Assembly (NCBI RefSeq): GCF_001650905.1 | Contig: NZ_LXYG01000017.1 | Location: 248,001-312,000, forward strand | Length of the DNA stretch: 64,000 bases | Direction: 5' to 3' | Source: Balneola sp. EhC07 | GTDB lineage: Bacteria; Bacteroidota; Rhodothermia; Balneolales; Balneolaceae | Shown here: positions 4,760-51,201 of the stretch, piece after piece | Position numbering within the stretch: position 1 is the first letter of the stretch | How the letters are laid out: the number at the start of each line of letters is the position of its first letter | Position numbers and translations under genes: made by a program | Notes under the pieces: model-generated | What the model was told of the DNA's origin: nothing | What the model saw: the letters and a program-made list of their open reading frames with translations, nothing else | The model's database searches: none

Positions 4760-4975
4760 TTAACCAAAGAAACGGGAGCTGTAGTAGAGAATTCCTAAAA
4801 TTAGGATAATCACCATGATCAACACACCTCTTGTTCTCCCCCCAAGAGGAGAAACCCGTTGGTTTGATTCAGTATCTGAGCAACGAGCTTCCCCTCCACC
4901 GGTGGAGGTTGAGGGGGTGTTTAATTGGTTAGCCATCTGACGGATAACCCGTCTGATGGGTTTTAAGGCAAACAA
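4760..4975 (-). CDS. Possible small single-pass membrane protein containing an in-frame palindromic repeat
   Basis: A 71-residue frame, or 58 residues if translation starts at the internal Met14 (M-A-N-Q). The C-terminal 22 residues are strongly hydrophobic (VLIMVIILILGILYYSS), a convincing transmembrane helix followed by a basic end. The middle and N-terminal codons run through intergenic repeat sequence (4885-4919 and 4933-4960). The gene may therefore be a small membrane protein invaded in frame by repeats, or just an open frame across repeats. The stop lies three bases before a bidirectional hairpin, which mildly supports a real 3' end. Not recognised as a family. Confidence 0.35.
   Translation of the reverse strand: MFALKPIRRVIRQMANQLNTPSTSTGGGEARCSDTESNQRVSPLGGRTRGVLIMVIILILGILYYSSRFFG
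4885..4919. repeat. GC-rich CCTCC/GGAGG intergenic repeat, copy 1
   Basis: The core CCTCCACCGGTGGAGG is a perfect palindrome, flanked by GAGCTTCC on the left and TTGAGGGGGTG on the right. A second copy in the opposite orientation lies at 47232-47265. The shared outer parts (GAGCT-CCCC and the GAGGGG end) mark this as a dispersed repeat and not chance. Confidence 0.65.
4933..4960. repeat. CTGACGG-type palindromic repeat, copy 1
   Basis: An imperfect palindrome with outer arms CCATC/GATGG and inner arms TGACGG/CCGTCT around a short ATAAC centre. It closely matches 6186-6212 and more loosely 6141-6167, together a small dispersed hairpin family. Confidence 0.6.
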
Positions 4976-6140: not shown

Positions 6141-6212
6141 GGTCAGACGGGCTACAGCCGTCAGACCTTCACGCCATATTTAATTCCATCTGACAGATAA
6201 CCCGTCTGATGG
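6141..6212. repeat. Two further CTGACGG-type palindromes
   Basis: Copies 6141-6167 and 6186-6212 lie between the secreted hypothetical and the MscS gene. The second is almost identical to 4933-4960. The first, read on the reverse strand, shares TCTGACGG and CCCGTCTGA with changed outer arms (GGTC/GACC for CCATC/GATGG). They are REP-like hairpins with no coding potential. Confidence 0.6.
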
Positions 6213-14896: not shown

Positions 14897-15328
14897 ATGA
14901 AAGCGACAGTAACTTACATTTTTTGTTTTTCCATACTTCTAATCTCCTGCAATGTGATCAATTTCGGTTCGGGCGATCTAACAACAGATCTGGAGCTAGG
15001 AGATACAGAAATAACCAATGTTCAGGATATCGATGCGACTTTTACAGTACGGAACGGAACCGATAAAGTAAAAAAATATTCGTTTTCTTCAGGGTGTCAA
15101 GTTTCCTTTTTACTTTCTAAAGATGGTGTTAAAAAATTACGCTCAGAGGAAAACTTAGGTTGTATCGCGATCGTAACCGGCATCGAGTTAATTCCTAACG
15201 AAAGCGAAACGTTCAAGTTACCCACACTTTTTGATGTTGAGCTTGAAGCAGGCGAATATATGATCAAAGCTTATCTAATCGGCTACGAAGATGAAGTATT
15301 TGCCACAAAAAGATTTAGTGTAAACTAA
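14897..15328 (+). CDS. BsuPI-like lipoprotein, tandem copy 1
   Basis: A 143-residue lipoprotein with lipobox LISC (Cys19). The mature part resembles the BsuPI/intracellular proteinase inhibitor beta-sandwich: ATFTVRNGTDKVKKYSFSSGCQ, where a Vxxxx-N-x-T and a Y-x-F-SSG pattern are typical. Two cysteines besides the lipid anchor (near residues 68 and 94) may pair. The next gene is a paralogue with nearly identical N- and C-terminal segments at DNA level and a diverged centre. The role is unknown; a protease-inhibitor-like or surface structural function is possible but not shown. Confidence 0.8.
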   Translation: MKATVTYIFCFSILLISCNVINFGSGDLTTDLELGDTEITNVQDIDATFTVRNGTDKVKKYSFSSGCQVSFLLSKDGVKKLRSEENLGCIAIVTGIELIPNESETFKLPTLFDVELEAGEYMIKAYLIGYEDEVFATKRFSVN

Positions 15329-15357
15329 ATAATCAAGTCACGAAATTTCAGATTCTA

Positions 15358-15798
15358 ATGATTACACGAACCAACATTCCCATTCTAATAGTTGTTTTTT
15401 TGCTGCTTTTGGTCTCTTGTAATGTGATCAATTTCGGTTCGGGCGATCTAACAACCGACCTGGAACTAGAAGAGACAGAAATAACCAATGTTCAGGATAT
15501 CGATGCAACTTTTTCAGTAAGAAATAAAACAGATGAAACTAAAGAATATAGCTTTTCATCGGGTTGTCAGATTTCTTTCATAATTAGTGAGAACGGCACA
15601 AAGATTATAAAAGCGGAGGAAAAATTAATTTGTACCAGAGCCTTAACCAGTTTTAAATTGGAAAAAGACGAAAGTAAAACCTTCGAATTACCAACTTACT
15701 TTGATATTGATTTGAAGGCCGGGACATACTCCATCAAGGCCTACCTTATTGGCTACGAAGATGAAGTATTTGCCACTAAAAGCTTTAGTGTAAACTAA
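15358..15798 (+). CDS. BsuPI-like lipoprotein, tandem copy 2
   Basis: A 146-residue paralogue of the preceding gene, 29 bases downstream, also a lipoprotein (LVSC). The first 35 or so mature residues (CNVINFGSGDLTTDLEL onward) and the last 14 (YEDEVFATKSFSVN) match copy 1 closely, while the centre (about residues 60-115) is much less conserved. The signal sequences also differ. The pair is the product of a tandem duplication. The two genes are probably one transcript; the divergent AbrB-Doc operon lies on the other side. Confidence 0.8.
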   Translation: MITRTNIPILIVVFLLLLVSCNVINFGSGDLTTDLELEETEITNVQDIDATFSVRNKTDETKEYSFSSGCQISFIISENGTKIIKAEEKLICTRALTSFKLEKDESKTFELPTYFDIDLKAGTYSIKAYLIGYEDEVFATKSFSVN

Positions 15799-33992: not shown

Positions 33993-34340
33993 GAATTAGT
34001 TTTTAGAATAAGTTAATGAATTCTTCGAGAGGTATCATATCCTAAACTGCGTACTTTAAACTTAGGAGTCATCGCCACGCGTAGGCAGGCGATCTAATTC
34101 TTTATCAAAGGCAACTCATAAATTAAGATCGCAGATTCCGGCATTCGCTGCGGAATGACTTTGAGTGAAATTGAATTCCTAAACAAAGCACTTATCACAA
34201 AACAACGAGTCATTCCGAGGGTACTCCCGATGGATCTGCACAGCATGAATTTGGCTTGTTCTTCGATGTGTAGACTCTTCACTGCGTCCACCTTCGCAAT
34301 GCTGCGTTGGACTTGTTATGAGTGACTTTAAAATCACTTA
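33993..34340. other. Non-coding gap with three REP-like hairpins
   Basis: A 348-base gap between the miaA start and the PorV-like gene's stop. It holds REP-like units at 34068-34095, 34133-34159 (opposite orientation) and 34209-34237. No credible gene is present; the open frame across 34094-34291 translates repeat sequence. Confidence 0.7.
34068..34159. repeat. Paired-hairpin REP element (BIME-like), copy 1
   Basis: Unit 34068-34095 runs GTCAT-stem-ATCT with stem ATCGCC/GGCGAT. Unit 34133-34159 is the same design inverted (AGATT...AATGAC) with stem ATTCCG/CGGAAT. The spacer is 37 nt. A second element of the same layout and the same spacer length is at 51020-51109. A third single unit of the family lies at 34209-34237. 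Confidence 0.75.
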
Positions 34341-43658: not shown

Positions 43659-43711
43659 TCTAAGATTCATTTCTGGATTCAGCATTAAGATAAGGCTGAT
43701 TCAATTAAGAA

Positions 43712-44134
43712 TTAAGAATTATTCAATGATCAATGTTTCTTTCTAATTGATTTTGAAGAAGTGATCTTAATCTTTCCGAGTATTGCCAAAATTTCTTCGA
43801 TTTCAATTAGCAATGATTCTACCATTTTTGATTCTAAAACTTCGGCGTCTCTTAATAATCTTAACCAATATTTAGTTTCTCTAGCTTCTTTATACGAAAT
43901 AGAAATCTTATGAATAAAATCCTTTTTTGATTCAGCACCTATGGCCTCTTCTGTATTAGCACCTACTGATGTTCCACTTCTTAGAATTTGCCGTGCTATA
44001 TCATATTGATTAGTAGAATTAGATAAGTATCTATTGAGCTTTACAATTCTTACAGCAAATTGATAAGTTTTATTAAGGATGATATTCTCTTTCATTATTG
44101 TAAAATATTTAATTGATCATTGAATAATTCTTAA
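43712..44134. mobile_element. Four-helix-bundle cassette bounded by 23-bp inverted repeats
   Basis: The arms at 43712-43734 and 44112-44134 are exact inverted copies (core TTCAATGATCAAT and its complement). They bound one 121-codon gene. The right arm overlaps the radC stop codon and the left arm the stop codon of the enclosed gene. The AT-rich arms could be a target repeat or true termini. No transposase is inside. Confidence 0.5.
43730..44095 (-). CDS. Four-helix-bundle protein (23S rRNA intervening-sequence protein family)
   Basis: A 121-residue helical protein of the family first found as the ORF of 23S rRNA intervening sequences. The diagnostic blocks RSGTSVGANTEEAIGAESKKDFIHKI and YKEARETKYWLRLL are intact. 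Members act as solitary four-helix bundles of unknown function and are widespread, scattered insertions in Bacteroidota genomes. Here it lies between argS and radC inside a pair of inverted repeats and runs in the same direction as both neighbours. A mobile-cassette origin is inferred. Confidence 0.92.
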   Translation of the reverse strand: MKENIILNKTYQFAVRIVKLNRYLSNSTNQYDIARQILRSGTSVGANTEEAIGAESKKDFIHKISISYKEARETKYWLRLLRDAEVLESKMVESLLIEIEEILAILGKIKITSSKSIRKKH

Positions 44135-44847
44135 TTGAGCTCGCCTAGCGAGCGTAGAGAAACAAAATCATATCCTGCAATAATAATATGATCATCTATC
44201 GGGATGCCGAGTAGTTTTCCGGATTCTGAGATCCTTTTGGTTAGTTGAATATCTGCAGTAGAAGCTTTTGCATTTCCTGATGGGTGATTGTGGAATAAAA
44301 GAATGGAATTGGCTTGATGAACAACGGCTTGGCGCATTACCTCAGCGGGCTCAACGATGGTGGCATTGCTTCCACCCGAACTGATTTGCTGAAATCCGGT
44401 GAGCACTTTTTTGTGATTCAGAAAAGCGACAATGAAGACTTCTTTCGTCAAATGACGGAGTTTAGGACCAAAGAAAGCAACAGCATCTTCCGGAGAAGTT
44501 ACTTGGACCTCTTCACCTAAACCGGCTACCTGAATTCTGCGAGCAAGTTCAAAAGCTGCCTCCAAAGTAATAGCCTTTACTTTCGCGATACCGGGAATTA
44601 CCCTAAGCTCGCTCCACTGTTTTTTGATGAGTGAATGTAGTCCGTTGAAATGATCAAGCAGTGCTCTTGAAGTTTCGATCACATTCATTTTTTTGGTTCC
44701 GGTTCGCAGAAGAATGGCAAGGAGTTCGGCATCAGAAAGAGAGCCGGCTCCATATTTTATAAGCTTTTCTCGGGGTTGTTCATCGGGACGCATATCTTTA
44801 ACGGTTCTGTTCAGGAAGTCTTCGGAAGAAAATGATTCTGTATTCAT
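44131..44847 (-). CDS. radC: RadC-family JAMM/MPN+ protein
   Basis: A 238-residue protein with an N-terminal helix-hairpin-helix-like part (LLAILLRTGTKKMNV; IPGIAKVKA) and a JAMM metalloprotease-like domain. The zinc-binding HNHPSGNAKAS-x-x-D motif is complete (near residue 180). The old DNA repair role is doubtful; JAMM activity on a peptide substrate is expected. The 3' end overlaps the right arm of the four-helix-bundle cassette. Confidence 0.93.
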   Translation of the reverse strand: MNTESFSSEDFLNRTVKDMRPDEQPREKLIKYGAGSLSDAELLAILLRTGTKKMNVIETSRALLDHFNGLHSLIKKQWSELRVIPGIAKVKAITLEAAFELARRIQVAGLGEEVQVTSPEDAVAFFGPKLRHLTKEVFIVAFLNHKKVLTGFQQISSGGSNATIVEPAEVMRQAVVHQANSILLFHNHPSGNAKASTADIQLTKRISESGKLLGIPIDDHIIIAGYDFVSLRSLGELN

Positions 44848-50906: not shown

Positions 50907-51201
50907 CAATCGTATAAAGCAGACTCGTTTAGAGTTTGGAATTTTTTAATTTTAACACGATTCGTCTTTTAAATGTCGGGTCGATCGGTGAACAGTAAGT
51001 ATTAACCTGAACAGAATTAGTCATCTCGCGGCGCATGCCCGAGATCTAAATTTCTTTAAAGCTAATAAATCTGAAAGCAGGTCCAGATTCCTGCCTCCGC
51101 AGGAATGACTTTGGTTAGAGAAAAATTTTATTGGTCTAGCTGATTTAATTTCAGCATATTCTGTTGGTACTAAATGGTAACGGGTTATATATAACCAGAT
51201 C
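50907..51201. other. Non-coding gap with a paired-hairpin REP element
   Basis: The gap is nearly 300 bases. The only structure I can support is the paired-hairpin element at 51020-51109. The rest is AT-rich and carries no gene. Confidence 0.6.
51020..51109. repeat. Paired-hairpin REP element (BIME-like), copy 2
   Basis: Unit 51020-51047 (GTCAT, stem ATCTCG/CGAGAT, ATCT) and inverted unit 51085-51109 (AGATT, stem CTGCxxGCAG type, AATGAC). The spacer is 37 nt, exactly as in 34068-34159. The stems differ from copy 1 by paired changes, so hairpin formation is conserved. Confidence 0.75.

Follow-up and report, generated by a model that had tools for sequence, protein, structure and literature searches.

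Paired GTC-tagged hairpins of Balneola: two spacer classes, and IS982-type ends in one subset

A 64-kb stretch of DNA from Balneola sp. EhC07 (hereafter, the window), lying inside a 3.62-Mb draft genome (G000), contains two pairs of short inverted hairpins, at 34068-34159 and 51020-51109. An initial annotation read their equal 37-nt spacers as the sign of one mobilised composite, placed a third, single unit at 34209-34237 and proposed a search for RAYT enzymes. Are the two pairs copies of one element, what is the unit that spreads, and what might move it? The features concerned are given below with their basis.

34012..34067, no strand assigned: left arm of dimer 1, with a weak TTCGAGA likeness to an IS982-type end
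34068..34095, plus strand: left hairpin unit of dimer 1, GTCATCGCCACGCGTAGGCAGGCGATCT, GTC-tagged, with a 6-bp outer stem ATCGCC/GGCGAT (stem scan; unit model 32.9 bits)
34096..34132, no strand assigned: spacer of dimer 1, 37 nt (sequence)
34133..34159, minus strand: right hairpin unit of dimer 1, GTCATTCCGCAGCGAATGCCGGAATCT (stem scan; unit model 32.5 bits)
34209..34237, plus strand: start of a distinct, longer GTCAT-ended repeat, approximately 34209-34325 (genome matches, folding)
51020..51047, plus strand: B1-type hairpin unit of dimer 2, GTCATCTCGCGGCGCATGCCCGAGATCT, ATCTCG stem with a bulge (stem scan; unit model 38.6 bits)
51048..51084, no strand assigned: spacer of dimer 2, 37 nt (sequence, pattern search)
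51085..51109, minus strand: A-type hairpin unit of dimer 2, GTCATTCCTGCGGAGGCAGGAATCT, 8-bp stem and 4-nt loop (stem scan, unit model)

The initial description of the two pairs was borne out. At both loci the units are inverted, have GTCAT/ATCT ends and carry compensated stems, and the 37-nt spacer is exact in both. Scanned for stems, the 64-kb window yielded just the four units of the two dimers and one unrelated match. As the units were picked by a scan that requires pairing, a figure of "100% paired" is built in and covariation alone is informative. Among 14 chosen units, four of the six outer stem pairs show compensated change on both sides; the covariation score is 0.639 (shuffles give 0.213, and slid controls do not exceed 0.198), and 19 cells are altered on both sides versus 5.1 in shuffles. 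When folded as single-stranded DNA, the 51020 dimer forms two clean hairpins (z -3.93; 0 of 200 shuffles as good), while folding of the 34068 dimer is weaker (z -1.93; 5 of 200). The entire 51020 dimer scores 100.1 bits with the dimer model R2, in whose own alignment it is one of 11 rows. No Rfam family reached its gathering score anywhere in the window.

The supposed third unit did not survive this analysis: the stretch at 34209-34325 folds about as well as its shuffles (z -0.71; 48 of 200 as good), and its first 29 nt begin a longer repeat. Parts of 34199-34328 have 74-86% matches at several places in G000 and in four related genomes (G001, G002, G004, G007), the matches to 34199-34285 having 74-85% identity across approximately 64-89 nt. 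Other repeats in the window include two 96% copies of CCATCTGACGGATAACCCGTCTGATGG at 4933-4959 and 6186-6212, which by eye are like the repeats flanking the RAYT-like gene L024; a perfect 25-nt inverted repeat (43710-43734 and 44112-44136, with 377 nt between); and a gene-sized stretch at 14926-15798 in two adjacent copies of 76-79% identity, whose starts are 470 nt apart.

Few copies genome-wide had been named as grounds for doubting mobility, and the copies are not few. In G000, a strict pattern found 21 units (reversed control, 0), the unit model gave at least 86 matches at E up to 10, and the dimer model gave at least 63 matches, which we merged by hand into 40 places (the place at C17:124514 joins two model matches). 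These genome-wide counts are lower bounds, as 150 candidates were scored with each model, from 970 first-look candidates for the unit model and 4400 for the dimer model, and the weakest few of the 40 places (E of approximately 0.001 or above) may be chance. Thirteen places are exactly 90 nt long; the others range from 71 to 136 nt. The units are of several types: A (GTCATTCCTGCGAAGGCAGGAATCT), with an 8-bp stem and a 4-nt loop; B (GTCATCTCGCGGCGTATGCCCGAGATCT, plus ATTCC/ATTTC variants), with a 6-bp stem, a bulge, 3 bp and a 4-nt loop; C (GTCATCCTGAACTTGTTTCAGGATCT); and others. The dRS3 repeat of Neisseria has an ATTCC...GGAAT core. All 12 A-type units of the strict pattern have an inverted partner, and for many B units the A partner is decayed or gone. 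A second dimer family is present in the same genome at L008 and L018, with units GTCATCCTGAACTTGTTTCAGGATCT and GTCATTCCGAACTTGTTTCGGAATCT.

Beyond G000, the dimer model has matches in at least 20 of 78 genomes (G000 included), 19 of which belong to the same family; at most 56 candidates were scored per genome in this search, so that its counts are lower bounds. An exact pattern run on one genome per species gave 58 stretches, 45 of them from Balneola, Balneolaceae or Gracilimonas and 13 scattered.

Is the 37-nt spacer a property of one element? We surveyed spacers using a pattern that admits 22-52 nt, which gave 64 matches from 9 of 48 genomes. The lengths form sharp peaks and not the broad scatter that would have spoken against a mobilised composite: the spacer is 37 nt in 29 of the 64 dimers and 36 or 38 nt in 14 more, with a second peak at 40-43 nt (n = 17). 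Two spacer classes accompany two B stems. With a CTC B stem the spacer is 36-38 nt in 40 of 43 dimers, and with a TCC B stem it is 40-43 nt in 12 of 12 (Fisher P 1e-9, which is optimistic because the copies are related). The eight dimers with a TTC B stem fit the two classes poorly, with spacers of 24, 37 (twice), 43 (three times), 44 and 46 nt, and a single CCC dimer has a spacer of 36 nt. The 34068 dimer, with units of 28 and 27 nt and stems ATCGCC and ATTCCG, is of neither the CTC nor the TCC type. The inference from equal spacers to a single element is not supported: the two window dimers differ in subtype and 37 nt is the peak of one class of two, so that their equal spacers are weak evidence of one element.

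To define what spreads, we compared 23 90-nt copies from G000, G002, G004 and G007 in all 253 pairs, with ungapped flanks counted as unshared at a score below 8. Spacers are identical at 28 or more of 37 positions in 61 pairs, and in 49 of these close pairs neither flank is common. Within a single genome (n = 19), neither flank is common in 16 close pairs and one is in 3; between genomes (n = 42), neither is common in 33, one in 6 and both in 3. Across the 49 flank-unlike pairs, identity is 0.86-1.0 within the ends (0.55 at one position) and falls to 0.14-0.55 beyond them, a low outside value that is due in part to the selection of pairs with unshared flanks. A gapped flank test on 18 copies from G000 found one flank common in 5 of 153 pairs. 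What recurs in the 90-nt class is a discrete unit with edges GTC/GAC. The suggestion of a mobilised composite accordingly stands for the 51020 dimer, a 90-nt unit copied without its flanks, and does not extend to the 34068 dimer, which is another subtype; the first interpretation as a whole is partly supported.

These comparisons also bear on the possibility that the dimers multiply passively, as larger mosaic repeat islands undergo segmental duplication or gene conversion. Such islands exist: the regions C14:288-304k, C16:18-35k and C19:138k carry larger repeats and have flanks in common, and part of another repeat lies within the 34068 element in G007. However, 16 of the 19 close same-genome pairs lack a common flank, from which it follows that the dimer spreads as a discrete unit, and we regard duplication of islands as quite unlikely to be the main explanation.

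A further question is whether the dimers move at all. Across eight genomes of the genus, two joined-flank searches located dimer sites, some of which were aligned. At G002:C11:39309, a stretch of approximately 186 nt (44 nt, a 96-nt dimer and 46 nt) is present in G002 and absent from G000, G001, G003, G004, G005 and G007. At C20:265545, a stretch of approximately 180-185 nt with the dimer at its center is present in G000, G004 and G007 and absent from G001, G002, G005 and G006. The stretch at G002:C12:30379 is absent from G000, G001, G003, G004, G006 and G007, and G005 has a dimer in that gap. Other sites show persistence or decay. The dimer at C3:53978 is found in all four genomes aligned, with 21 nt added to the A loop in G000 and G007. 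At C12:159605, dimers in G000, G004 and G007 correspond to solo hairpins in G001 and G002, which arose by two different internal deletions between short repeats in the pair; dimers can thus collapse into solo hairpins. At C19:47793, C2:277977, C14:133650, G007:C17:131017 and window 51020, the genomes lacking the dimer differ across much of the intergenic stretch, so that these alleles are not clean empty sites. At the window 34068 locus, the element is altered in G001, G004 and G007 and mostly missing in G002.

The same alignments weigh against a view in which the hairpins are immobile regulatory or terminator structures kept under selection, their spacing held constant for function. In its favor, just 4 of 39 places fall inside ORFs, which are small (84-97 codons) and possibly spurious; the remaining 35 are between ORFs. 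On the other hand, the ORF-based orientation of the flanking genes is mixed (15 ++, 7 --, 8 divergent, 5 convergent and 4 inside), spacer sequences are unlike between genera, close relatives differ in the presence of the dimer, and the insertion at G002:C11:39309 counts as contrary. We judge this explanation highly improbable, and a terminator role in particular was dropped, since convergent genes are not favored around the places.

If the dimers are mobile, the obvious candidate for moving them is a RAYT. On this account, a Y1 (RAYT) transposase encoded in the same genome recognizes the GTCAT hairpins and copies the dimer, as in ordinary REPINs. G000 has six Y1_Tnp matches, five of them at or above the cut-off, yet no GTCAT unit of the scanned kind lies within 1.5 kb of any of the six genes, and the proposed RAYT link found no footing there. 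Association between genomes is more favorable: the L026 RAYT family, which 24 of 78 genomes possess, is found within the bacterial family in 17 of the 19 genomes with dimers and in 6 of the 28 without (Fisher P 5e-6, uncorrected for kinship). In three genomes a dimer lies near a RAYT match, at approximately 155-200 nt: G004 and G007, where the loci are orthologous, and G003. Against this, R2 finds a dimer (E below 0.001) at just 3 of 30 RAYT loci, and L026-family loci often bear hairpins of their own. Of the 24 loci taken in from the 30 fetched (L194-L223), 16 have an upstream CTCG-tagged hairpin, 13 have a downstream one and 10 have both; L222, the second G000 gene of this family, has no CTCGT-tagged hairpin upstream or downstream. 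L026 had been a candidate for the cognate RAYT, its upstream hairpin in G000 (GTCATTCCGCAGC, reverse strand) looking GTCAT-like, and it was dropped because the tag of the recurring hairpin differs (CTCGT). L024 and L025 are RAYT-like genes of 201-202 aa with repeats of their own at their flanks, that of L025 resembling a repeat that is matched many times across the genus. The proteins of the L194-L223 family are approximately 180-200 aa, and many of the genes have a TTTGTAAGGAAT-like motif upstream. On balance, ordinary RAYT mobilization is a real but somewhat unlikely explanation.

A different lead comes from the sequence outside the dimers. The two cleanest inserts exceed the dimer by approximately 45 nt per side. 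From 28 flanks, a motif search recovered AATGTGAGTTCAGAA, whose likelihood is 190 versus 160-169 in three shuffled sets (restarts were unequal, 25 for the real set and 12 for the shuffled sets). In 20 freshly fetched elements, GTGAGTTCGAAATAAGAAA was matched at 16-18 of 19 positions on at least one side in three (L382, L383 and L384), at a distance from the dimer of approximately 50 nt on the left or 41 nt on the right; the remaining 17 had no strong match to it, and the signal in the fresh set overall is weak (20% of flanks at a score of 12 or more, versus 12% in shuffles). A pattern search of 46 genomes returned 13 exact end-motif matches in 6 genomes (reversed controls, 0). In G003, GTGAGTTCGNNATAAGAA has 5 occurrences at 4 loci, each with a GTCAT...ATGAC dimer 41-50 nt inward, and 2 of the 4 loci are new, lying outside the elements used earlier. 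The 8 exact matches in five other genomes have no GTCAT dimer at that offset, which indicates that the ends carry other cargo too. L394, L399 and L402 of G016 have IS982-type ends around another inverted hairpin-pair core (CCCCTCC..GGAGGGG).

The two complete G003 elements, 180 and 184 nt long, both carry AACGTGAGTTCGAGATAAGAAAC as inverted ends, with slight divergence at one end in the second element. They are bordered by direct duplications AAAT and ATTT, and the other two loci by AATCT and AATT; all four duplications were read by eye. The link to IS982 comes from several sources. In G047, the end lies before an open frame with a Pfam DDE_Tnp_1_3 match of 91.7 bits, and the encoded fragment, truncated by the contig end, scores 126.4 bits with NCBIfam IS982 (NF033520), against a whole-protein cut-off of 130. 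Among the four plasmid records compared, out of 288 with an IS982 match, an annotated IS982 element of Bacteroides finegoldii is bounded by the end both left and right, at 20/21 and 17/21 positions. A similar end stands upstream in two Nostoc plasmids (17/21). In the Cyanobacterium Dongsha4 plasmid, neither side matches clearly, at 15/21 upstream and 11/21 downstream. For Balneola genomes, a check of 1.67 Mb of loci revealed no IS982 gene, and no IS982 protein was confirmed in viral contigs.

These ends belong to one part of the family. We scored the flanks of 91 elements, part of which had defined the motif. Of the 60 flanks that belong to ATTCC/ATTTC-stem dimers, 14 have an end score of 9 or more; among the 86 ATCTC-stem flanks there are 0, and among the 36 remaining flanks 2. 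Shuffles reach this score at a rate of 1.5%, and control windows do so in 5 of 182 cases. A subset of ATTCC/ATTTC-stem dimers is the core of IS982-ended elements of approximately 180 nt with 4-5-bp duplications, and the window copies are not among them. IS982-type ends for ATCTC-stem dimers were rejected on the 0 of 86, and none are present at window 51020 (P 0.95). At the 34068 dimer, the end score is 7 on each of the two sides, which is not significant (shuffle P 0.055), and a unit near-identical to its GTCATTCCGCAGCGAATGCCGGAATCT is present in the IS982-type elements of G003 (GTCATTCCGCAGCGAAAGCCGGAATCT). No target duplication was seen at the window elements.

Which known repeats are these closest to? 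As in the CGTC-1 repeats described in PMC3733652, the Balneola units have a short unpaired GTC tag and a stem that starts with AT (14 of 14 chosen units), the A unit has an 8-bp stem and a 4-nt loop, and the dimers are head-to-head and include heterodimers. CGTC-1 units flank no transposase gene; nor do the scanned units in G000, and in G004, G007 and G003 a dimer lies near a RAYT. GTC is almost constant; however, the base before it varies, where CGTC (or TGTC/CCTC) would be expected. A stem of 8-9 bp from AT with a 4-5-nt loop describes the A unit, whereas the B stem is bulged (6 bp, bulge, 3 bp, loop of 4). The CGTC-superfamily tail near CCA (3 nt) was not found, most copies having CT or CTGG. 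Two further differences from that description are that the Balneola spacer follows stem type and that the outer ends can be named as IS982-type. For two species, one of them with CGTC-1, the paper places REP dimers within palindromes, with no IS family named in that passage, and it gives dRS3 of Neisseria as a CGTC-1 repeat (PMC3733652).

As in REPINs (Bertels and Rainey 2011, PMC3116915), an inverted REP doublet with its spacer replicates and is dispersed between genes; here, the flank analysis and the 90-nt copies show the doublet as the dispersed unit. Unlike in REPINs, no RAYT in G000 was found with GTCAT hairpins of the scanned kind at its flanks, and loci of the L026 family often have CTCG-tagged hairpins there. 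The IS982-ended elements are also like MITECca01 of Cardinium (PMC9769881), a gene-less element of approximately 240 bp (here approximately 180) with IS982-family ends, but their core is a GTCAT REP dimer, and the ends are likened by description. Shared terminal inverted repeats, as expected of an IS982-derived MITE, are found in the G003 elements and not at window 51020. In the open-licence literature searched, we found no description of Balneola palindromic repeats of this kind or of GTC-tagged Bacteroidetes REPs, and a search for GTCATTCC as a repeat gave only unrelated work among the matches listed. Nor could we find the spacer classes, or IS982-type ends bordering some members of such a family, described in that literature.

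Taken together, we consider it likely that the dimers are REPIN-like mobile composites of two GTC-tagged REP hairpins at a set distance, closest to the CGTC type, in the Balneolaceae, a judgment that includes the putative movers. For the IS982-ended subset of ATTCC/ATTTC-stem dimers, an IS982-family DDE transposase would act in trans, with the dimer carried as core. Less firmly, the naked 37-nt class, to which the 51020 dimer belongs, may be mobilized, now or formerly, by a trans-acting enzyme that recognizes the hairpin pair in its folded form, the likeliest being a Y1/HUH enzyme encoded elsewhere; a fixed spacer would set the geometry of such a folded pair. We also offer, as a doubtful conjecture, that GTC-tagged dimers began as the cores of IS982 miniature transposons, which would explain why they have no transposase of their own: the AT-rich, unselected arms decayed, the GC-rich pair and its spacing survived, and one class later became copyable in naked form (90 nt).

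What moves CGTC-type REPs was left open by Di Nocera et al. (2013, PMC3733652), who suggested that a wide variety of transposases might. The IS982-type ends suggest, from sequence comparison, that a DDE transposase may disperse some members of a REP type considered to be without a transposase. Within one family, then, one subset resides in IS982-ended elements with direct duplications, and a sister subset occurs as bare 90-nt copies without a recognizable enzyme; both routes of movement are testable with defined sequences.
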